Part shown: positions 22,938 through 34,731 of the stretch, one piece after another | How positions within the stretch are numbered: the first letter of the stretch is position 1 | How the letters are laid out: the number at the start of each line of letters is the position of its first letter | Assembly (NCBI RefSeq): GCF_001375555.1 | Contig: NZ_CTDZ01000009.1 | Span: forward strand, 1,977,758 to 2,041,757 | Length of the DNA stretch: 64,000 nucleotides | Origin: Numidum massiliense | GTDB taxonomy: Bacteria; Bacillota; Bacilli; Thermoactinomycetales; Novibacillaceae | Direction: 5' to 3' | Program-made: the position numbers and the translations under genes | Notes under the pieces: model-generated | The model's database searches: none | What the model saw: the letters and a program-made list of their open reading frames with translations, nothing else | Told to the model about the DNA's origin: nothing

Positions 22938-24011
22938 TCAGTTAGCGACTGTACGACTCACCTTCCGTACGACCGGACTCACCCAATACCCCGTCACCCG
23001 CGCCAACACACATAACCCGATCCCCACCGCCAAAAACACGAGGCCAACCGGCAACGCCCCGTACGTCGCCCCGACGATGAGAAATTCAAGCGCCAACCCT
23101 TGAATGCGCTGAAACGTCGCCCGATCGACCGCCGCTGCCCAGCGCGTCTTGCCGAGCAACAGCTGCACGATTAAACCCCCGACCATCGCCAGCGGGAACA
23201 ACGGCATCCCCGCAATCCACTGGCCGATCACAACTTGCATCCCCCAACCGATCAAAATCGCTAGCGAAATTAGTGCCGCATGAAAGGCAAATGACTCAAT
23301 GGCATCTTTATTGAGCGTCACCTTCGCCCCGACAGACTGCTTGTCCCGCGGCAGAAGGTCGCCTGCTTGTGTCACCTTCAGCTCCTGCACATTTTTTACG
23401 ACCGACGTGTACCCTTTACGCACCCCGTAGTTAATGAGGATCATGCCGACGACAATACCGACGAGTAGGCCAACCGTCGCCGACGTCATCCCGAGCGGCC
23501 CTCCGTCCGACCAACCGAGCGTGTCGAACACGTCGACCATCCCACCGGCCGTCCCGTGCCCGCCGGAAAACCCGATTTCCACAATGGATCCAAACATCCC
23601 GTTCACGTCCCACAACGGCGTGAGTAGTAGCGCCGTAAGGATAAACGGGATCGACACTTGCAGACACTCACCGATATACCCGAAATAAAGCTGTGGCATA
23701 ATGATATTGCCAACCTTTTTCGGATTGGGCACCGTCATCCCCATCAGCATCGGCGCAAACACAACGGTGATGAGCGCCCCCGGCAGTGCCCCCCAACTTT
23801 CCGTCATCTCGGCGGGCAACACCCCTAATCCGTACGGCCCGAGCACGAGCCCTAACGTTCCCGCGATAAGGGCAGCGGAAATGAAAAACTTCTGAAACAG
23901 CTTCACCTTCACGCGCAAAACCACCCCGACGAGCAACAACACCCCTAACACCGCCACGTAAAACAACAGCGTCTCTACGTTGGCGGACGTGATTTTTTCC
24001 GATGGAAACAC
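22938..24011 (-). CDS. sodium/glutamate symporter (GltS) family membrane protein
   Basis: Polytopic membrane protein of 357 residues with about ten hydrophobic segments. Family features are the glycine-rich GFSGGHGTAGGMVDVFDTLG and MTVPNPKKVGNIIMPQLYFG. The N-terminal portion is shorter than in E. coli GltS. The start is GTG at 24011, seven bases after GGGAGGAA; in-frame sequence upstream to 24173 is not protein-like. The truncated cyclodeaminase gene follows, so the two may once have worked on the same amino acid. Substrate is uncertain. Confidence 0.82.
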   Translation of the reverse strand: MFPSEKITSANVETLLFYVAVLGVLLLVGVVLRVKVKLFQKFFISAALIAGTLGLVLGPYGLGVLPAEMTESWGALPGALITVVFAPMLMGMTVPNPKKVGNIIMPQLYFGYIGECLQVSIPFILTALLLTPLWDVNGMFGSIVEIGFSGGHGTAGGMVDVFDTLGWSDGGPLGMTSATVGLLVGIVVGMILINYGVRKGYTSVVKNVQELKVTQAGDLLPRDKQSVGAKVTLNKDAIESFAFHAALISLAILIGWGMQVVIGQWIAGMPLFPLAMVGGLIVQLLLGKTRWAAAVDRATFQRIQGLALEFLIVGATYGALPVGLVFLAVGIGLCVLARVTGYWVSPVVRKVSRTVAN

Positions 24012-24380
24012 GAAAAGATTCCTCCCAATAAGTGATGATGTTTCCTTAAAATGAGCGCGCCAACTGAACGTCCACACGTCTCTGTTTATAGACCCCTTTG
24101 TGATCGTGGTTTTGTTAACGATCCTTGAACGTTGCAGCCTTTGCTTGCACGCTGTTTTCAACCCCGTTACCAAACTTGATAAACCGTTAACCCGTTGATA
24201 GGTTGACCTGCAATATGCAACGAACGCTTTGCCTTTCTGACCTTACCGATTGCAGTGACTCATTATCGTGACACATCGCTATGACAGATCATGCCCACAG
24301 ATCACTGCTTTAATTTGTGATTTCCGATTTGCTACTTATCGCTCTACCCATCGCATCCCCCCTTTCCCTTGATCCACGGC
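24012..24380. other. intergenic, no gene seen
   Basis: Upstream region of the GltS-type gene. No convincing -35/-10 pair or open frame with a ribosome binding site. The stretch ends at the repeat copy starting at 24381. Confidence 0.4.
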
Positions 24381-24523
24381 TAACCATTTCCAATGAGTCA
24401 TTCGTTGTTCATGAAAGATTCCTGTTACAACGCACCAGTTTGTTTAGTTCAGCAACACACCAATCGTCGACTTTTGTTAAGTAAAAAAGCGCGACGTGGC
24501 ACTGTAACGCGTGTGCCGTTTTT
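24381..24523 (-). pseudogene. 3' fragment of a small XRE-type regulator gene (repeat copy 1)
   Basis: About 143 bp that closely match 25228-25375, the 3' end of the intact small regulator gene. On the minus strand it reads AHALQCHVALFYLTKVDDWC and continues VAELNKLVRCNRNLS to a TGA. The intact copy has one extra base after LFYLT and stops early, so this fragment keeps what looks like the older, longer C-terminus. The part coding for the helix-turn-helix is absent. The same DNA can form a GGCAC/GTGCC hairpin flanked by A and T runs, so it may also serve as a terminator. Confidence 0.55.
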
Positions 24524-24541
24524 ATACAAAACGTATAAAAA
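24519..24541. promoter_or_regulatory. perfect palindrome, candidate operator
   Basis: TTTTTATAC, five bases, GTATAAAAA. It lies about 160 bp upstream of the XRE regulator gene at 24702, and further TTTTTATAC-like half sites occur at about 24560. It could be the binding site of that regulator. Confidence 0.35.
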
Positions 24542-24701
24542 CAAACGTTTAACCCATACTTTTTATACATATAGAGTAAGTAGTGGTTCTATATTAATTC
24601 TTCGTTATGTATAAGTCAAGCTATATTTGTACTTTTTGTATATTTTTCTCATCACGTTTATTCCATTGTCTACAATACGAAGAAAGAGGAGGTAGATTTA
24701 G

Positions 24702-25112
24702 ATGGAACTTGGCGATAGATTACGATTATTGCGGGAAAGACAAGGCTTAACCCAGCTCGCTCTCGCAAACAAGTTACACCTCCCAAATCAAAATATTTCT
24801 AACTACGAGCGTGGTTTCAGACAACCAGATTATGAAACCCTTCAGTTATTGGCCGATTTTTTTGATGTTACGATTGACTATTTAATTACTGGTCAAGAAG
24901 ACAAAAGGACTTGTACAGTTTCCGTTGCTGATCAAGTGGTCGAACTTACGGTAAACGAGTATAAGTTACTCCTCGAAATGAAAAAACATCCGGAATTTGA
25001 AGCATTGCTTCACGAACTTTCCAAGGAGCCTGAACGCAATATTAATAGGCTCATTAGAATGTGGGCTTTTATTAAATCCGAATTGGAAATGGATCAGCGA
25101 GAAGAAGGATAA
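24702..25112 (+). CDS. XRE-family transcriptional regulator
   Basis: Protein of 136 residues. The N-terminal helix-turn-helix (about residues 5-60: LRLLRERQGLTQLALANKLH, ISNYERGFRQPDYETLQLLA) is a standard Cro/CI type, followed by DYLITG, a hallmark of SinR/ImmR-like proteins, and a helical C-terminal half. ATG follows GAGGAGGT by eight bases. It is flanked by the two copies of a 145-bp repeat, so it may have come in by a duplication or insertion event. Probably represses its own promoter. Confidence 0.9.
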   Translation: MELGDRLRLLRERQGLTQLALANKLHLPNQNISNYERGFRQPDYETLQLLADFFDVTIDYLITGQEDKRTCTVSVADQVVELTVNEYKLLLEMKKHPEFEALLHELSKEPERNINRLIRMWAFIKSELEMDQREEG

Positions 25113-25227
25113 CCGTTTAACCCTGTACTCGTTATCCCCCCTTACTTCATCGACCGTTGTTGCTATTGTTTACTTAACTATGTATAAATTGTTTTTTATG
25201 AAAGCCATATTTATTTCAATCTATAAC

Positions 25228-25375
25228 TAACCATTTCCAATGAGTCATTTGTTTTTCATGACAGTCCGCTACTACAAACGCACCAGTCTGTTCAGTTCAG
25301 CGACACACCAATCGTCGACTTTTCGTTAAATAAAAAAGTGCGACGTGGCATTCTAACGCGTGTGCCACTTTTTTT
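25228..25375. repeat. repeat copy 2 (matches 24381-24523)
   Basis: About 145 bp with roughly 85 percent identity to copy 1 by eye, both starting TAACCATTTCCAATGAGTCA and ending in the GTGTGCC hairpin plus T run. Same orientation. The two copies bracket the XRE gene 24702-25112. Confidence 0.85.
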
Positions 25376-25509
25376 GCCGTTTCCTTACCCGGAGTTTTGC
25401 TGCCGCTTTCAATTTGCGAGTAGTAACTGCGGGAGATTCCGGCAAGGCAAGCGACGTGTTGTTGGGTTAGGCCTTTGGACTTGCGTGTGTCGATAAGCCA
25501 TTGGCGCAT
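25297..25509 (-). CDS. small XRE-family regulator with frameshifted C-terminus
   Basis: Protein of 70 residues from the ATG at 25509, seven bases after GAGGAGG. It is mostly a helix-turn-helix (MRQWLIDTRKSKGLTQQHVA, GISRSYYSQIESGSKTPGKE). The last 24 residues are coded inside the 148-bp repeat (copy 2, 25228-25375). Compared with copy 1 there is one extra base in the A run of the LFYLTK codons, which replaces a longer C-terminus by SRRLVCR and a stop. The HTH is intact, so the protein may still bind DNA. The gene end also forms a hairpin with AAAAAAGTG / CACTTTTTT ends. Confidence 0.7.
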   Translation of the reverse strand: MRQWLIDTRKSKGLTQQHVACLAGISRSYYSQIESGSKTPGKETAKKVAHALECHVALFYLTKSRRLVCR

Positions 25510-25551
25510 GGGAGAGCCTCCTCTTCTCACTGTGTGGTATAGAATCGAATG

Positions 25552-25564
25552 ACCAATTATTGGT
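25552..25564. promoter_or_regulatory. palindromic candidate operator
   Basis: Perfect ACCAAT-T-ATTGGT, 43 bp upstream of the small XRE gene on the minus strand and in the divergent region facing the next XRE gene. Probably an autoregulatory site. Confidence 0.4.
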
Positions 25565-25802
25565 TATGATAGGATAGAGCACTAGAGCACCTTATACAAT
25601 CGTGATCGAAACCGTAAATAATAAATCCTAACGCATTTAGTCGAATTGATAGACGCGTATTCTTTAGATACTAACTACGTGTGGTCAACTTACGTTTATT
25701 ATATTGAATCATACTCAATTCTCCAACACATAAGTTGGATTAAATTCATAAATTACATCGCATCAGTCTTTCCGATATGATTAAAGATGAATATCATTCA
25801 AG

Positions 25803-26120
25803 TTGGTGACTCCAGTGATTGAAGTTGGAAAACGAATTAAAGAGTTACGCGAACAAGCAGGTCTTTCTGGCCGTATGCTGGCTAAACTAGCTAAACTTGA
25901 TCCGTCACAAATTTCAAAAATCGAAAACGGTGCAGCCAAACCATCTTTAGATGCGTTGGATCGGATATGTCAGACGTTAGACATTACAATTTCGGAATTT
26001 TTTTCTACAGAATCTGATCCTCTGCCTCCCGACCTAGTTCAACTATTGAAGACAACTAAGCAACTGACACCGGAACAGAGAAAGTTGTTAAACGAACTTT
26101 TAAGGTCGTTTGAAAAGTAA
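25803..26120 (+). CDS. XRE-family transcriptional regulator
   Basis: Protein of about 105 residues. HTH at residues 8-62 (IKELREQAGLSGRMLAKLAK, PSQISKIENGAAKPSLDALD), then a helical tail KTTKQLTPEQRKLLNELLRS typical of small phage or element regulators. The exact start is uncertain: TTG at 25803, GTG at 25806 and GTG at 25815 are in frame and none has a strong ribosome binding site. It is divergent from the small XRE gene and precedes a VbhA-like antitoxin gene. Confidence 0.85.
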   Translation: MVTPVIEVGKRIKELREQAGLSGRMLAKLAKLDPSQISKIENGAAKPSLDALDRICQTLDITISEFFSTESDPLPPDLVQLLKTTKQLTPEQRKLLNELLRSFEK

Positions 26121-26283
26121 TGTTAGATGAATCTTAGAGGGAATGCGGATAAATGTGGGAATTTATAAAGGTGCAATGTGATGAAAACGAATAGCCGCAA
26201 ACATTTTTAGCTCGCCACAAAAAGAACGAAATGACAATGGCGCGGTTTGAATAATTATGTTATTCATAAAGGATGATGAAGAA

Positions 26284-26466
26284 ATGAATAAATATTGTGT
26301 TGCCAATACTACAAAAGCCGAAAGAGAAAGATTTGTTGCTAATGCTGAAGCGATTAACGCTCTCGGAGCTGAACCATTAACGAAAGAAAATCGGGCTTTA
26401 TTACAAAGCTATATTGATGGTGAAAATGAAATTGATGAAGTGTTGCAAATGGTTATTCTTAAATAA
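26284..26466 (+). CDS. VbhA-like antitoxin domain protein
   Basis: Small protein of 60 residues, start ATG at 26284 eight bases after AAAGGATG. The pattern RERFVANAEAINALGAEPLT followed by LLQSYIDGENEIDEVLQMVI fits the three-helix VbhA family of antitoxins that inhibit Fic toxins. No fic gene is present nearby, so it is an orphan or acts in another role. It may be cotranscribed with the 24-residue frame that follows. Confidence 0.5.
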   Translation: MNKYCVANTTKAERERFVANAEAINALGAEPLTKENRALLQSYIDGENEIDEVLQMVILK

Positions 26467-26564: not shown

Positions 26565-26639
26565 GCGTATTTCTCTATATTCCTGCCATCTAAAAGGACA
26601 CAACAAAAAACCTCAAAAATTTTTCCGTTCCTAGCAGGA

Positions 26640-26680
26640 ATTTCCCATTCCTCGTCGAATGATTCTACTAACCGATATTT
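26640..26680. repeat. conserved upstream element of receptor cassette A
   Basis: Contains TCGTCGAATGATTCTACTAA, closely similar to 28368-28418 and 30961-31011. It lies 25-65 bp before the receptor start, where a promoter or autoregulatory operator would be expected. Confidence 0.6.
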
Positions 26681-26705
26681 CTACCAGAGAATGGGGGTTA
26701 TTGAA

Positions 26706-28031
26706 ATGGGGATCGATCCGATCACGCTGGGAGCACTCATCCGTAAACGCCGCAAAGACATGGGGCTGACATTGAACGATCTGGCAAGTGACAGCATTTC
26801 CGTTCCGACGATCAGCAACATCGAGCGCGGCATCACGGGCAATCTCGCCAGTGAGAAGGTCGCCTACATCCGTGAAAAACTTGAATTAACGGACGAACTG
26901 GTTGAAAAAATGCTGAAGACAACAGAAGAGGAGGACGAGCGCCTCGCGAGAGAAATCGCTAACGTGAGGTACTTAGCCGGGCTAAATTTACTTAGTGAAG
27001 CGCGCCAAGCAGTAAGCGCTTTAGAAAACGATGACAAGTTAGGCGATTACCCTCGTTACGCGACGACAACCCAACTGCTGAAGGGGATCGTCTTGCGCAA
27101 ACAGGGGCAGTACGAGAGAGCTAAGAATGCGTTCCAGCAGGTATTGCGCCTCCTACGCGAAGATCCGCTAGATGAGCCGAACAACCTCGCTGCCGAAGCG
27201 TACTTTAATTTGTCCATTATCGCGGCATTGGACGATCAGGATTACGGGAAAGCAATTGAGTATGCGGAGATGGCGCTCGACGTGTTCCAGAATGATGGCG
27301 ATGAACTGCAGCTAGAAGGACATGTGCTGTACAATATCGCAAACTATCACTTCCATCTGGAACAGTATGGCCAAGCCTACAAATATGCCATCGATGCGAG
27401 ACCGAAATGCGAACAACACCATGACACGAAGACCTTCCTATTGACGTTCAATATCGAAGGGTTGACGCTTTCTGCACAGCATTTGTACAGCCGGGCAGCA
27501 AAAGTATTTCGGAAGGCGATTAACTTGTCGCGATCGTATTACGCCGATCCGTGGCTTGGCAGCATTCTCTATCTTAACTTGGGTGACACGCTATACCGTG
27601 AGAAAGCGTATGAGCAATCGTTGCAATGTTACGATATTTCCTATAGGCTTTGTAAAGAAACGAAAGACGAGCATCAACGCGCCACACTTTATTATTCTTA
27701 CGGCGAGGTCTATCTCGCAATGGGGGAATACGAACGGGCAACAGAATTCGCGGATAAATCCTTCGAGCTTGCGAAAAAGTTTCACTTCACTTCAGAGTAT
27801 TTACCGCTTCTGTTGCTGAAGGCGAATATTGCCCTAGAACAAGGCTCTACTAAAGTAACAACTCTGTGCGAAGAAGGGATTCGCCTTGCTGAAAAAAGCC
27901 AGTTGTTCAACAAAATGAAGGACTTTCATTTCGTTTTGGCGAATTACTACGAGAGGTCAGGCAACAAAGAAGCATTTCATCAACAAACGCAACATATGTA
28001 TCAGGTAGAATCTTTAATTCGCGGGAGGTAA
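26706..28031 (+). CDS. RRNPP-type quorum-sensing receptor (HTH plus TPR), cassette A
   Basis: Protein of 441 residues. An XRE-type HTH at residues 1-60 (LGALIRKRRKDMGLTLNDLA, SVPTISNIERGITG) is followed by about nine TPR-like helix pairs (for example ALDVFQNDGDELQLEGHVLY, KAYEQSLQCYDISYRLCKET, ATLYYSYGEVYLAMGEYERA). This is the architecture of PlcR, NprR and related regulators that bind a processed secreted peptide in the TPR groove. I use the ATG at 26706, eight bases after GGGGG; an in-frame ATG at 26691 has a weaker site. A short secreted peptide gene follows after 5 bp, as expected for a cognate signal. Two broken paralogous copies lie downstream. Confidence 0.88.
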   Translation: MGIDPITLGALIRKRRKDMGLTLNDLASDSISVPTISNIERGITGNLASEKVAYIREKLELTDELVEKMLKTTEEEDERLAREIANVRYLAGLNLLSEARQAVSALENDDKLGDYPRYATTTQLLKGIVLRKQGQYERAKNAFQQVLRLLREDPLDEPNNLAAEAYFNLSIIAALDDQDYGKAIEYAEMALDVFQNDGDELQLEGHVLYNIANYHFHLEQYGQAYKYAIDARPKCEQHHDTKTFLLTFNIEGLTLSAQHLYSRAAKVFRKAINLSRSYYADPWLGSILYLNLGDTLYREKAYEQSLQCYDISYRLCKETKDEHQRATLYYSYGEVYLAMGEYERATEFADKSFELAKKFHFTSEYLPLLLLKANIALEQGSTKVTTLCEEGIRLAEKSQLFNKMKDFHFVLANYYERSGNKEAFHQQTQHMYQVESLIRGR

Positions 28032-28036
28032 ACGTT

Positions 28037-28183
28037 GTGAAAAAAATCATCGCTTCAGTCGTCGTAATTGCCGTCTTAGTCTTGCCCATGACTGCGTTTG
28101 CCGGTACGAGAGCCCCAATTGTGATGTCGCACAGCATCGGGGTAGATACTCCACAGGAGTATAAGCTCCCAGACAACAAGTAG
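28037..28183 (+). CDS. secreted signalling pro-peptide of cassette A
   Basis: 48 codons starting GTG, seven bases after GGAGGT, 5 bp after the receptor stop. It has a positively charged start (KKII), a hydrophobic core (ASVVVIAVLVLPMTAFA) with an AFA cleavage motif, and a hydrophilic C-terminal part of about 26 residues ending VDTPQEYKLPDNK. Size, position and layout match Phr/NprX-type precursors, from which a short C-terminal or internal peptide is released, re-imported by an Opp transporter and bound by the receptor. Which residues form the mature signal is unknown. Confidence 0.8.
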   Translation: MKKIIASVVVIAVLVLPMTAFAGTRAPIVMSHSIGVDTPQEYKLPDNK

Positions 28184-28308
28184 CGTAGAAGTAACGTTGA
28201 ATAAAATATCCACATGCTAATTAATTCCGCAGCATGAGAGGGTTAATGGACATATTGGCTTAATACATTATTTAACGCTCAACACCTTTATGTCCTACAA
28301 CTTGTGAT

Positions 28309-28353
28309 CCGTAAAGCGAACAGTGTATTAGTCGTTCGCTTTACGGTTTTTTC
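28309..28353 (+). terminator. Rho-independent terminator of cassette A
   Basis: Perfect 13-bp arms CCGTAAAGCGAAC / GTTCGCTTTACGG with a 12-base loop and TTTTTT. Confidence 0.93.
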
Positions 28354-28367
28354 TGTGGCCTTGACTA

Positions 28368-28418
28368 CAGAAGGTGTTTCACACCTCTCCGTCGAATCCT
28401 TCTACTAACAATACTTTT
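28368..28418. repeat. conserved upstream element, remnant of cassette B leader
   Basis: Near identical to 30961-31011 (CAGAAGG.GTTTCACACCT, CCGTCGAATCCTTCTACTAA). It holds an inverted repeat AGAAGG / CCTTCT. No receptor start follows it here because the 5' half of cassette B has been replaced by other genes. Confidence 0.75.
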
Positions 28419-28480
28419 GGCTCATTGTAAAATGGAATGCAACAAAAGAAAAAAAGACAAGCCACGGTTATAACATCCAA

Positions 28481-28963
28481 TTAGTATTCGGGACTGGATA
28501 AATCCGTGACATCGCAGTTATTTAACAAAATTTTTTTTAGAAAGGATAAAGCTTCCACGGTGACCACTAATTCACCTTTTGGTGATAGACAAAAATGGTG
28601 ACCAGACCAGTTTTTAAAGGTCTCCCCTTCAATATCTACCGTACCAAGAGGGATAAATCTTCGAAAGGGAGGGAGTTCCCTATCCGGATATAGTTCATGA
28701 AATGCATCGGACGTTGTAATCAAGCAATCCTCTAATCGATAATCTCTAAAGGTACTCTCTACCAATTTTTCCTCTAATTGTTTCGAAATTATGAAACATG
28801 GAGCTGACTCAAGAAGGTCGTCCCCGAGCCACCCTTCAAATTCATAATGTAAATAGTTTACCTTATCAGATACGCCTTGCACTGCACCATCTTTAACTGT
28901 TCCATATACTGTCTTCTCTCCATGTCCACCCGCTACTTCAGGTTCCAAAAAGTACAAGTTCAT
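28481..28963 (-). CDS. immunity protein, Imm43-like
   Basis: Protein of 160 residues without a signal peptide. The segments LHYEFEGWLGDDLLESAPCF and LYPDRELPPFRRFIPLGTVD resemble Imm43/Imm11-type immunity proteins of polymorphic toxins. There is no good ribosome binding site before the ATG at 28963, and an IS110 remnant begins only about 12 bp upstream, so the original promoter and toxin were probably lost. It sits in the cargo that replaced the 5' half of receptor cassette B. Confidence 0.55.
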   Translation of the reverse strand: MNLYFLEPEVAGGHGEKTVYGTVKDGAVQGVSDKVNYLHYEFEGWLGDDLLESAPCFIISKQLEEKLVESTFRDYRLEDCLITTSDAFHELYPDRELPPFRRFIPLGTVDIEGETFKNWSGHHFCLSPKGELVVTVEALSFLKKILLNNCDVTDLSSPEY

Positions 28964-28974
28964 TTACAGTTAAT

Positions 28975-29313
28975 AGGCAACAAATCATCCGCTTGGCAGG
29001 GTTGGATCTCAAAGAGAATAGCTCAGGCAAGAAGAAGGGGAAAACGGGTATTAGTAAACGAGGACGTGCAAGGTTACGTGCCCTGCTATTCCGATGGGTT
29101 CTCCCGATGGTCGCTAAAAATGCCGAGTTTAAAGCGATGCATCGTTACTACACGACACGTCGTCACAATCCCCTGAAAAAGAAGTAATCGCTTATTGCCT
29201 TGTGCTGCAAACTGATCAAAGTTCTGCATACGCTCGGTACGAGGCAGATTGCGTATGATGCGAAGGATGTTCTGGGTCCAGTGCGCCAGCAACAGTTACA
29301 GATGGCTGCTTAA
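28975..29313 (+). pseudogene. 3' remnant of an IS110-family transposase
   Basis: Reads IIRLAGLDLKENSSGKKKGK, ISKRGRARLRALLFRWVLPM, then a nonsense TAA after NPLKKK and, in the same frame, LIALCCKLIKVLHTLGTRQI to the natural stop at 29311-29313. This is the C-terminal Transposase_20 region of IS110/IS1111 transposases. The N-terminal RuvC-like domain is absent and one sense codon has become a stop, so the element is dead. Confidence 0.85.
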
Positions 29314-29482
29314 AACGAATTAGCCAATCGTCGTGTGACCTTAAGTTTTTCCGTAGTATCATAGCATAATGACTGGGGGAATATGGAACTTAGTGGAGGA
29401 AGTCATTTGTCCGTGTATTAATCAATAATCTAAAACATTTAGGAGAATATAAACCCCAATACCATTAATATTGTATTAACAA

Positions 29483-29846
29483 TCACTGCTTTACGATTGT
29501 TAACTCCCCTATATTGCTAAGATCAAATTTCGATTTGCCTTTGTTTTCCTTAAACCATTTGGCTAACAACGTATCGTACAGCATGTAATGCCGATATTCC
29601 TCTATTGTACGCTTCGTGATGCCGTGTTTCTTAAGGAATTTTGTAACTTCATACGGCCTTTCGATAATAATGCCATCCCCATTGGCATTTTCAGTGTAGA
29701 TTTTAATTGGTAATTCCTTCAACTCCTTATTATTAGCATGATACTCAACGTTTAACTGCACACTTATCCTTTTAGTAACTTCTTTATTATAACTTAGGAA
29801 TATTTTCCTTTTGCTTTTGTAGAAATATATATTATAACTATCCCCT
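29483..29846 (-). pseudogene. C-terminal fragment, TipC-like immunity protein
   Basis: About 118 codons without a start; the frame upstream is antisense to the receptor cassette B fragment and not part of the gene. Readable segments KIFLSYNKEVTKRISVQLNV, IIIERPYEVTKFLKKHGITK and RHYMLYDTLLAKWFKENKGK recall the C-terminal half of TipC-family immunity proteins. The junction with cassette B is at about 29846. AT-rich compared with flanking receptor DNA. Confidence 0.4.
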
Positions 29847-30561
29847 AGGACATGTGCTGTACAATATCGCAAGCTTTTACTTCCATTCGGAGCAGTACGG
29901 TCAGGCATACAAATATGCCATCGACGCACGCGCAAAATGCGAACAGATGCACGACATGAGGGTTTTTCTATTTACGTATAACCTAGAAGCACGGACACTC
30001 TCAGAACAGCACCTTTACGACAAGGGCGTGGAAGTTTTTAAGAAAGCGATTAACTTGTCCCGTACACGCTACCCAGACCCATGGCTTGGAAGTATCTTGT
30101 ATCTCAATCTAGGCGACACGCACTACCGTGACAAAGCGTACGAGCAAGCGCTACAGTGTTACGATATCGCATACAGACTGTGCAAAGAAACAAAAGACGA
30201 GCAACAGCGCGCCACTCTTTATTATTCGTACGGTGAGGTCTATCTTGCAATGGGAGATGTAGAAAAGGCGACTGATTATGCAGATAAAGCTTTCGAGCAT
30301 AAGAAGAAGTTCCGCTACAACTCGGAGTATTTGCCGCTTCTGTTACTAAAAGCGAACATTGCGCTGGAACAAAACTCTTCCGAGGTCGCATCCATCTGCG
30401 AAGAAGGTAATCGACTAGCGGAAACAAGTAAGTTGTTCTCCAAAAAGAAGGACTTTCACTTCGTTTTGGCGAATTACTATAAGCGGACAGGCAACCGAGA
30501 AGCATTTCATCAGGAAACGAAACATATGTATGATATAGAATCATTAATTCGCAGGAGGTAA
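29847..30561 (+). pseudogene. RRNPP-type receptor, cassette B, 3' fragment (TPR part only)
   Basis: Starts abruptly at a point matching 27317 of cassette A and reads LYNIASFYFHSEQYGQAYKY through nearly the whole C-terminal TPR region to LIRRR. It is clearly paralogous to cassette A (identical stretches such as GSILYLNLGDT and ATLYYSYGEVYLAMG). The HTH and the first TPRs are missing, replaced by the segment from about 28420. An internal ATG at 29854 without a ribosome binding site could give at most a TPR-only protein. Confidence 0.88.
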
Positions 30562-30566
30562 ACGTT

Positions 30567-30692
30567 GTGAAAAAAATTATCGCCTCAGTCGTCGTAATTG
30601 CTGTCTTAGTCTTACCCATGACTGCGTTTGCCGGTGGGAGAATGCCTGTTGTGGAGAATCACCAAGCGTATGTGCATATAGACAGCAAGTAG
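30567..30692 (+). CDS. secreted signalling pro-peptide of cassette B
   Basis: 41 codons, GTG start with GGAGGT seven bases before it and 5 bp after the receptor fragment, exactly as in cassette A. The first 23 residues (KKIIASVVVIAVLVLPMTAF, then AG) are the same as in peptide A, but the remaining C-terminal part (GRMPVVENHQAYVHIDSK) is different. The signal would therefore differ. It can still be translated if a promoter reads through the truncated receptor; no intact receptor partner remains in the window. Confidence 0.75.
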   Translation: MKKIIASVVVIAVLVLPMTAFAGGRMPVVENHQAYVHIDSK

Positions 30693-30792
30693 CGAATTGA
30701 ATAGGACGACCTTGCAAAAATAATGCACTGAGATTTTTTGAGCATTATCGTGTACATCTTTCCGTGTACAGCAACTTTACGTTCAAAGAAAT

Positions 30793-30845
30793 AATAATCC
30801 GATGGGCGGACATGTATTAGCAGTCAGCTTATCGGATTATTTTTG
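30793..30845 (+). terminator. Rho-independent terminator of cassette B
   Basis: Perfect 11-bp arms AATAATCCGAT / ATCGGATTATT followed by TTTT, about 100 bp after the peptide gene, the same relative place as in cassette A but with unrelated sequence. Confidence 0.85.
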
Positions 30846-30960
30846 GATAGAAGGGAATTTGACATTGGTGTGTGAATCTCCCTCTCAGTATTAGAACTAT
30901 TTATCAATAATCATGCTTACTAAAAACTACACAGCAAAAGTTAAACAACTTCTCTGACTG

Positions 30961-31011
30961 CAGAAGGAGTTTCACACCTCCCCGTCGAATCCTTCTACTA
31001 ACAATACTTTT
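30961..31011. repeat. conserved upstream element of cassette C
   Basis: Near identical to 28368-28418 and similar to 26640-26680. It precedes the HTH part of cassette C by about 20 bp, confirming that the element belongs to the receptor 5' region. Confidence 0.75.
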
Positions 31012-31028
31012 TTACCAAAAATTTTTTT

Positions 31029-31412
31029 GGGGTCATTGACAGGGAGATCAATCCGATCACGCTTGGTTCACTTATTCGTAAGCATCGTAAGGACATGGGG
31101 CTGACATTGAACGATTTAGCAAGTGACAGCATTTCCGTCCCAACAATCAGCAATATCGGGCGCGGCATTACGGGCAACCTAGCCAGTAAGAAAGTGGCTT
31201 ACATCCGTGAAAAACTCGTGTTAACCGACGAAAAAGTACATCAGCTGCTAAAGAACACCAAAGAGGAGAACGAACGCTTCGCACAAAAAATCGCCAACGT
31301 TAGATACCTAGTTGAGCTAAACCTGCTAAGTGAAGCGCGTCAAGAGATAAGCGCTTTACAAGCTGACGACAAGTTAGGCGATTATCGGCGTTACACGACG
31401 ACGATACGTCTC
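31029..31412 (+). pseudogene. RRNPP-type receptor, cassette C, 5' fragment (HTH and first TPRs)
   Basis: Matches cassette A from its codon after the first ATG (GVI..., INPITLGSLIRKHRKDMG, LNDLASDSISVPTISNIGRG) to DYRRYTTTIRLSL, then joins the 3' end of a DUF6119 gene. Both candidate start codons are lost (ATG changed to TTT and AGG); the next ATG is at 31095, inside the HTH. The conserved E of NIERG is G. Its TPR half and peptide gene are missing, so the cassette is dead. Confidence 0.88.
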
Positions 31413-32941
31413 TCACTCTTTGTAACTCAACACCACCTTTGGGATATACCTTGCATTTATCACTTGACGTCTCCATTCGTTAATTTTCATTAAGAATATT
31501 AATGACTTGAAATCAGCCAAATTATTAACGTCACTTTTTCTATCCAAAATCAACCATATGCAGATACATTTTGGTACAATAGATTTGGAATCAATCTCAA
31601 TGCACCTTCTGTTATCCTGAAGATACTTCACAGCGGCTAATGATTGATCGATAACATAATTCAATTTTTGTGGTGTGCCTATTTTCACAAAGTACAATGT
31701 TTCATCTTTATATAGATCCGTGATCTCAAGTTTAAATTTATCATATTTTGTAATATCCCTATCAAGATTTCGGTATCCGACACCTTTAGCAATCACTTCA
31801 TTAAAATACCTCTCTGCATACCACTTTTTTTCTCTTCCTCACTCAATTTACTCTTCCATACTTTATATTCCTTTGAGTTGAAATTAAATTCTTTTCTGAC
31901 CTCAAATTCAATGTTGGAAACACTATTGATTAAGTAATCAACATAATTATCATTGAATTTAACCCATTTATCATCCTGTAAAAAATAATTATCCTCATCT
32001 ATATAATCGATGAAATATTTTAACCTCCTTGTGAATCCTTTGTTACTTTCATCGACAGCTTTGATTTTTATATCATTGATTGATTCGACTGATAGTTCTA
32101 TACCTGCCCTCGAAATAACCTCTGTTAAATCTTCTATTGATCCGTCCACGTCAATTTCAAAGTTCCTCCTACCATTTAAAAATAATGAGTATTCTTTAAG
32201 GAATACAAATTCTACACCCGATAAATCCTGTGTTTCTATATTCAATATCAAGTTGTTGTTGATCAAATTATCAACTAACCGTTTATCCAGCTCCTGTATT
32301 TCTTTTTTGTCCTGTACTTCAACGGCATACGGAATAGCGAATCGTGGCTCCTTCTTTAATTCTGATTCCAAGGCCTCTATGAATTCTGGTAGATCTGTTG
32401 GCCGCATATCCTTAATGTTAAATGTTACCGAATTACCACAATCTATCTTCTTCCCCCATTTTTGGTCTGTCGTCTTTCCCTTAAGAAAGTTTATCGCTTC
32501 GCCGCTATCTACCTCTATGGAAGTATTACTCTGATACGTGACAATGCTTTTTCTCCTAGAGCCCCCAAATAATCTCGAATTCTTCATGTCGATATGATTG
32601 TCGTCAATTAGCCGAGTGCCAATTTCAATGCCAAAATCCAGCTCACAAAACTCCTTTAAGTAAAAATGAGTTTTTCCCAAACTAATGACATAACAATAAT
32701 CATCACATGTGATTACTAATGCTCCAAAATAGTTTTGATTTGCTAGTTCATTACTCCCACTAAAGAAATCTTTATATAAATCTGCCCACCATATAGACGA
32801 TGAGCTCTTCGCAAAGTAAAAACACATTGAAACACCATTTAATTTTTTATCACTTGAACGCTCTAAACCTACGGAACTAAACTTTTCGGCTAGGTCTATC
32901 TCTCTTTCTTTCTTTATCTTGTAAAGGTTGAACTTGTACAT
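31413..32941 (-). pseudogene. DUF6119 (TIGR04141, sporadically distributed) protein, one frameshift
   Basis: Two overlapping frames form one gene: 31793-32941 (N-terminal 382 residues; RLFGGSRRKSIVTYQSNTSI, SGEAINFLKGKTTD, CGNSVTFNI) and 31413-31796 (GVGYRNLDRDITKYDKFKLE, VKIGTPQKLNYVIDQSLAAV). One extra A in the seven-base A run at 31825-31831 would restore EEEKKKWYAERYFNEVIAKG across the join. The family has no certain function and is often found near restriction and defence genes. It is AT-rich and sits beside an hsdR fragment. The ATG at 32941 has a GGAGAGGAT site. Frameshift could be a real mutation, slippage or a sequencing error. Confidence 0.75.
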
Positions 32942-33012: not shown

Positions 33013-34731
33013 CTACACCCCCTCACTCGCCATCAATTCCGCCTGCTTCACCACCGTCTCTACCGCTTTCTTCTGCAAGTCCGGTGGGTAGCCGTACTCC
33101 TTCAACAGCCGGCGTACTGTGATGCGCATTTTGGCGCGGGACGATTCGCGGAGGTTCCAGTCGATGCTCATGTTCGCTTTGACCGCCTTCGTCAGTTCGT
33201 GGGCGATCAGGCGCAGTTTTTCATCGCTCATCACTTCTTGCGCCGATTCGTTCGTCGCGAGAGCGTCGTAGAAGGCGATTTCTTCGTCGCTCAGACCCGC
33301 TTCTTCGCCCCGCTTGTAGGCGGCGTTCATTTCTTTCGCTAACTCGATCAGTTCTTCGATTACTTTGGACGTTTCGATGGTGCGCTTATTGTATTTGTTG
33401 ATCGCGTCTTCGAGTAGCTCGGAAAATTTCTTTGCCTGCACGAGGTTGCGCCGCTGAATGTGTTTCACTTTCCCTTTTAGCAGACGGTTGAGTAGTTCAA
33501 CGGCGACGTTTTTGTTCGGCAAGGCGCGCACTTCGTCCAAAAACTGGTCCGACAAGATGGACAGGTCGGGCTTGTCCAAGCCGAGTGAGCCGTAGACGTC
33601 GACGACTTTTTCGGAGATGATCGAGTTGGACAGCAGTTGGTTAATTTGCGACTCGACTTGGTACAGTGTTTGTTTATCTTTTTTGCCTGCGGGCAGCAGT
33701 TTGACGATGCCGCTTTTGACCGCTTTAAAAAAGCCGATTTCTTCGTTCAGTTCTTCCGCTTCGGGCGTGGTGGCGCACAAGGCGTACGCTTTCGCCAGTT
33801 CGGTCACGAGGCGGAGGAACTCTTTCTTTTCTTCTTCGCCGCGGCCGATGACGAAGTCGACGGTTTCGACGATCGCTTGCATCCGTTCGGTCGGTTTGTC
33901 GGACTGGAACTTTCTGTAGTCGTGCCGGTAGAGCATGTCTTGGACGATTTCGAGTTTTTCCAGCATAAGGTCGACGGCGACCGATGTGTCGATGCCAGCG
34001 TTCGCTTTGTCGCTGTCGGTGTACTGTTTGAGCGCCTCTTTTAACATGTCGGCGATGCCGATGTAGTCGACGACGAGGCCACCCGGTTTGTCGCGAAAGA
34101 CGCGGTTGACGCGGGCAATTGCCTGCATGAGGTTGTGGCCACGCATCGGTTTGTCGATGTACATCGTGTGCAGTGACGGGACGTCGAAGCCGGTGAGCCA
34201 CATGTCGCGCACGATGACGAGTTTGAGCGGGTCGTCGTTGTCTTTCATCCGCTTGGCGAGTAGTTCCCGCCTCTTTTTGTTGCCGATGTACAGTTGCCAA
34301 TCCGCCGGGTCGCTGGCGTTGCCGGTCATGACGATTTTGATGACGCCTTTTTTGTCGTCGTCGGAATGCCAGTCGGGGCGGAGAGCAACGATTTCTTTGT
34401 ACAGGTCGATGGCGATGCGCCGCGACATGACGACGATCATTCCTTTGCCGAAGAGCGCTTCTTGCCTTTTTTCAAAATGGGCGACGATGTCGCGGGCGAG
34501 TGTGTGGACGCGGTCTTTTGCCCCGGCGAGCGCTTCCAAGCGCGACCACTTCGACTTCAGCTTTTCCCGCTGCATCGACTCTTGGTCTTCCGTTATTTCT
34601 TCGTAATCGTCGTCGATGGTGATGTCTTTCGGCATCGCCAACTTGACGATGCGGCTTTCGTAGTAAATTTTTACAGTGGCTCCGTCGGCAACCGCTTGCG
34701 TCATGTCGTACACGTCGGTCAGCGAACATTA
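33013..34731 (-). pseudogene. type I restriction endonuclease HsdR, C-terminal fragment
   Basis: About 570 residues of a protein that is normally about 1000. Present: the second helicase domain ([56 protein letters not shown]) and the helical C-terminal region. Missing: the N-terminal nuclease and the Walker A/B part of the motor. The frame starts just after a TAA at about 34732 without a start codon, at the sequence [20 protein letters not shown]. No hsdM or hsdS is in the window. It cannot restrict DNA. Confidence 0.9.

Follow-up and report, generated by a model that had tools for sequence, protein, structure and literature searches.

A probable RRNPP-type quorum-sensing locus of NprR-like architecture in Numidum massiliense, with one intact cassette out of three

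Our analysis points to an RRNPP-type quorum-sensing locus of NprR-like architecture that once comprised three tandem receptor-peptide cassettes, A, B and C, of which only A is intact; we put the probability of this reading at about 0.85. The locus lies in a window of 64,000 nucleotides, positions 1,977,758-2,041,757 of contig 9 of the Numidum massiliense genome (3.76 Mb). A preliminary description had proposed an HTH-TPR receptor A (26706-28031) followed 5 bp later by a secreted peptide gene, a 3' receptor fragment B with its own peptide gene (29847-30692) and a 5' receptor fragment C (31029-31412). All of these were recovered, and the features of the locus, in window coordinates, are as follows.

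26636-26660 (+): sigma-H-type promoter of cassette A, AGGAATTTCCCATTCCTCGTCGAAT, by sequence pattern; same form before spoVG
26706-28031 (+): receptor A, HTH-TPR, intact, 441 aa, NprR-like predicted fold (ORF, domains, model, structure match)
28037-28183 (+): propeptide gene A, GTG start, 48 aa, predicted Sec signal, tail after AFA GTRAPIVMSHSIGVDTPQEYKLPDNK (ORF, paralogue comparison)
28309-28352 (+): strong intrinsic terminator of cassette A (-19.9 kcal/mol, z -4.6)
28362-28438 (+): remnant of the cassette B promoter and leader; 57 nt (28362-28418) are 95% identical to the C promoter
28440-29846 (no strand): foreign segment of about 1.4 kb replacing the first 204 codons of B, left junction presumed
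28481-28963 (-): protein of the phage family phrog_32682 inside the foreign segment
from 29483 (-): TipC-type immunity gene in the foreign segment, truncated, its N-terminal part missing at the junction
29847-30561 (+): receptor fragment B, residues 205-441 (protein match 29848-30558 at 75%)
30567-30692 (+): propeptide gene B, GTG start, 41 aa, intact, separated from the cassette promoter (ORF, paralogue comparison)
30793-30845 (+): strong intrinsic terminator of cassette B (-25.8 kcal/mol, z -6.4)
30965-30990 (+): sigma-H-type promoter of cassette C, AGGAGTTTCACACCTCCCCGTCGAAT, by sequence pattern
31029-31412 (+): receptor fragment C, residues 3-124 (protein match 31047-31412 at 79%; DNA similarity from 31029)

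ATG 26706 is favoured as the start of receptor A, since a G-rich ribosome-binding stretch upstream of it is kept in the paralogues. The protein carries an N-terminal HTH_3 domain (8.9e-7, above the cut-off), as expected of RRNPP receptors except Rap, together with TPR_12 (3e-23) and many further TPR matches. In its AlphaFold2 model (mean pLDDT 91.8), residues 5-58 form an HTH bundle, 18 helices lie between 63 and 440, and nine TPR hairpins come after the HTH; by TPR families and model, the C-terminal body lies within the range of 5-9 TPRs known for RRNPP receptors. The best solved structure was NprR of B. thuringiensis (5dbk_A; VIA-align Z 29.6, rmsd 5.1, 353 aligned), and receptor A has the HTH plus Rap-like nine-TPR body that characterizes NprR. 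Fold matches to NprR and Rap span the whole TPR part, and over residues 72-441 these two rank as the nearest solved relatives. Rap structures and LGN, a eukaryotic TPR protein, score within about one or two Z units of NprR, and because LGN comes this close the fold alone is not decisive. Identity between receptor A and NprR is only about 15%. A phmmer search of the PDB with receptor A returned generic TPR proteins only; a profile of 40 receptor sequences was needed to match NprR (7e-13) and RapF (7e-11) by sequence. The receptors are under purifying selection, with a dN/dS of about 0.1.

Both propeptide genes of the window begin 5 bp past the stop of the preceding receptor or fragment (28031 for receptor A), gene A with the ribosome-binding site GGAGG. 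Further propeptide genes follow the receptors at L009 (two), L010, L011, L012 (two, the second with CTG at the expected start position), L013, L015 and L018 as well as the receptor fragment at L021. Hence, 12 propeptide genes, A and B included, occur in the genome; at receptors L014 and L016 no recognisable peptide gene was found. The 12 propeptides share one signal, approximately MKKxIASxVVxALLxxPxTAFA, and differ in their tails, most of which show a basic residue and a proline shortly behind AFA. The tails carry [R/K]xP[I/V] in part, which is a resemblance only to the NprX core SKPDIVG. A gene for a short secreted propeptide adjacent to the receptor is a hallmark of RRNPP systems; the Sec signal is predicted here from the sequence. 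Since the pairing recurs at many sites of the genome and in the nearest relative, it is not a chance arrangement. No specific co-evolution of receptors and tails emerged, because the receptor-tail correlation (0.48) was no stronger than that between receptor and signal (0.70). Propeptide B matched the AimP model weakly (16.9 bits, below the cut-off of 35). At L021 (1051-1589), an intact propeptide gene with a duplicated core (DRTPPGHG, DMTPPATKH) accompanies receptor remnants in head-to-head orientation, of which the plus strand encodes the first 51 residues and the minus strand the last 68; internal peptide duplication has been reported for phr and nprX genes (PMC5199041). As far as sequence and model can tell, the fold, the ranking of NprR first by structure, the profile matches to NprR and RapF and the conserved downstream peptide genes thus support the proposed multiplied RRNPP-type locus.

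The promoter copy at 28362-28418 most likely represents what is left of the original 5'-end of B. As it marks where this cassette began, A, B and C once formed a true tandem array with one intact member, as had been suggested. Fragment C is a pseudogene, since its start codon is lost (AGG for ATG) and the invariant Glu40 is replaced by Gly; its 3' part is missing as well. Inspection by eye indicated a possible IS110-type transposase remnant at 28980-29310, within the segment that breaks B. At the junction of fragment C ends a TIGR04141/DUF6119 gene (31413-32941, minus strand), present as two overlapping ORFs split at 31793-31796. Upstream of cassette A, a 69-aa ORF (26257-26466, plus strand) showed a sub-threshold match to the antitoxin VbhA (E 0.0044). 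The region 22938-26120 holds a membrane-protein gene, GltS-like by eye without a Pfam match, and short XRE regulators; together with the cassette this trio is repeated at L073 and L079, which suggests a duplicated segment.

The pattern AGGAnnn-N11/12-nnnGAAT was found 65-92 bp upstream of the start in 12 of the 15 receptor upstream regions tested in this genome. As these regions are related by descent, they do not represent 12 independent events. The pattern was absent before L014, L016, L020 and the copy L023 of the nearest related genome, and in the B remnant. A strict version, AGGAWTT-N10-13-GTCGAAT, occurs eight times genome-wide, six of them before receptors, and never in the reversed control. 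The spoVG gene, a classic sigma-H gene in Bacillus subtilis, is preceded in this genome by GCAGGATTTTCACCATCTTTGTTGAAT, which has the same form as the cassette promoters, and a sigH gene is present (368 bits). From their promoters, the cassettes look as if they were switched on at the onset of starvation or sporulation. Most phr genes and nprX of Bacillus have sigma-H promoters that serve the peptide gene (PMC4147580). An additional internal sigma-H promoter before the peptide genes (27919, 30449) was not supported, since synonymous conservation ranked only 62nd among 370 windows and L009a, L012a and L013 carry a disrupted site. Likewise, no regulon was found for a common operator, TASTAACANNATTTT, after the promoter, because 13 genome matches faced 12 in the reversed control.

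The cassette family comprises about fifteen modules in the genome, with 14 full-length receptors (L012b and L013 are each interrupted by one in-frame stop) and several fragments. Within the tandem pair L012a/b the DNA is identical through codon 132, and over the same stretch L009a/b share 93-98% identity, while over most of the TPR part both pairs drop to 63-88%. Correspondingly, dS amounts to 0.25 (L009) and 0.0 (L012) in the HTH and to 0.93 and 0.47, respectively, beyond it. Protein-level selection alone would not reduce dS, and gene conversion at the 5'-ends of the tandem receptor genes is therefore likely. Among all parts of the receptor, the HTH varies least across the paralogues, and this near-invariance next to divergent TPR and peptide ends suggests that the paralogues may read different peptides but bind similar DNA. 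At L074 (1871-4866), receptor L010 is followed on its own strand by genes for a DUF6792 protein and a lipoprotein; a paralogue of this lipoprotein lies near L009 (L088, 6391-7041).

In the nearest genome, from the same family (G001), a propeptide gene encoding this type of signal comes after three receptor copies, including one 3' fragment. Thus, the homologous small genes downstream of receptor homologues, whose absence from relatives would have spoken against the preliminary description, do occur. In the tree, L020 pairs with L070 of G001, L016 with L069 of G001, and the A clade, which has ten full-length members in this genome, pairs with a single G001 copy. These pairings point to three old lineages, of which the A clade expanded after the split. 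The order from nrdR/dnaB/dnaI-like genes to a thrS-like gene is conserved by eye around L020 (L083) and its partner L070 (L094), indicating an old, vertically kept copy. In the collection of genome contigs, receptor A as a single query had no matches, and the receptor alignment retrieved only distant relatives, mostly from Thermoactinomycetaceae-type genera.

By its sequence features, the locus is of the NprR/Alo type and probably works like these systems, a kind of quorum sensing already known. With NprR-NprX of the Bacillus cereus group it shares the HTH with nine TPR-type hairpins, a downstream Sec-signal propeptide and the link to sigma-H. It differs in its many paralogues, in the low identity, in tails that resemble but do not equal SKPDIVG and in the position of the sigma-H-type site, here before the receptor; the B. 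thuringiensis gene under sigma-H direction is nprX (PMC4147580). According to its published description, AloR-AloP of Paenibacillus polymyxa likewise comprises numerous chromosomal HTH-TPR receptors, with a propeptide gene downstream of each (PMC7425212). Alo propeptides measure 32-50 aa, some Alo loci are orphaned or degenerate, and the system has been reported essentially only from Paenibacillaceae (PMC7425212). Since multiplied Alo loci are known, with up to 40 receptors in one Paenibacillus (PMC7425212), multiplication itself is not new. Several Alo loci have a spo0E-like gene downstream, but none was recognised by eye among the neighbouring ORFs here. Rap-Phr systems of Bacillus share the TPR fold, sigma-H-type phr promoters and internal peptide duplication as in L021; unlike receptor A, Rap proteins lack an HTH. 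PlcR-PapR and AimR-AimP also combine an HTH-TPR receptor with a downstream propeptide. PlcR, however, is shorter, with five TPRs against 441 residues and nine hairpins in receptor A, and is the poorer structural match (TM 0.42 by query length). The suggestion that the locus may never have been described in this organism agrees with the literature searched.

Each cassette once had the order promoter, receptor gene, propeptide gene and terminator, and we infer the following mechanism. Sigma-H RNA polymerase would co-transcribe receptor and propeptide genes as cells enter stationary phase or sporulation. After Sec-dependent export, processing of the propeptide would release a short signal out of the tail behind AFA, possibly near [T/D/G]RxP[I/V], which an oligopeptide permease would re-import. 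Within the cell, this signal would enter the TPR groove of its receptor, thereby altering receptor assembly and DNA binding and, presumably, the regulation of target genes.

The main role of the receptors could instead be that of Rap-like or NprR-like phosphatases in the sporulation phosphorelay, with the HTH being secondary and the peptides relieving inhibition of sporulation. The Rap and NprR relationship over residues 72-441, the double role of NprR in the phosphorelay and in DNA-binding regulation (PMC5349214) and the sigma-H-type control, which links the cassettes to the sporulation transition, all fit this idea. Nevertheless, we consider it unlikely, as the strong conservation of the HTH among the paralogues argues that DNA binding matters. 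Much less probable still is that these HTH-TPR proteins are ordinary regulators sensing something besides the adjacent peptide, the small ORFs serving another role. Although peptide binding is something we infer and generic TPR proteins match the fold too, fixed gene order, tight spacing, a conserved signal with divergent tails and sigma-H control together form the RRNPP pattern.

The surroundings of the cassettes raise a different question. All four restriction/BREX anchors from genome-wide searches, namely the truncated HsdR of the window, an HsdR fragment at 780 kb, an intact type III system at 2.717 Mb and the BREX gene pglX, lie 0.9-2.5 kb from a cassette. Since stretches no more than 5 kb from a cassette make up about 4.8% of the contig, the chance of four out of four is about 5e-6, a value that overstates the link to defence because the test was post hoc, the families were self-chosen and variable genes cluster. 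The L012 pair sits between pglX and pglZ on the BREX strand, with brxA, brxB and brxC upstream, and LXG and TipC-type genes also occur near cassettes. The BREX locus itself (G000:C9:2269000-2282000; L076, L086, L087) reads brxA-brxB-brxC-pglX ... pglZ, nearly all on one strand; between pglX and pglZ it holds the tandem receptor-peptide pair, an IS3-like transposase pair and repeated membrane-protein genes. The type I restriction gene hsdR of the window (33013-34713, minus strand) has lost its N-terminal half (profile 467-1023 of 1029), an HsdR N-terminal domain was found nowhere in the genome, and PglX was the only HsdM-type N6_Mtase found in the genome.

Control of the surrounding restriction, BREX and LXG/TipC-type islands by the cassettes, so that immunity and antagonism track cell density, would suit the anchor distances and the position of the L012 pair on the BREX strand. 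We rate it as quite doubtful, since the test was post hoc among genes that cluster anyway, most restriction genes near cassettes are fragments, the defence genes do not share the cassette promoter pattern, and inspection by eye revealed no restriction, BREX or toxin neighbours at the four G001 loci. No paper linking RRNPP systems to BREX was found in the literature searched, and we regard the association with defence islands as a lead only. A broader scenario is similarly speculative and improbable: a burst of peptide-sensing cassettes with one DNA-binding half, homogenised by gene conversion among tandem copies, may have spread through defence and toxin islands, giving density- and starvation-dependent control of BREX, restriction and interbacterial-toxin genes.

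The quorum-sensing reading of NprR-like architecture, which we prefer, would extend large Alo-like families to a lineage in which none has been described in the literature searched. Because the cassettes neighbour BREX and restriction genes, it can be tested directly whether phage defence is under quorum control. Furthermore, with near-identical HTH ends, divergent peptide-sensing ends and recent fragments, the cassettes form a within-genome series that may be useful for studying how signalling specificity diverges.
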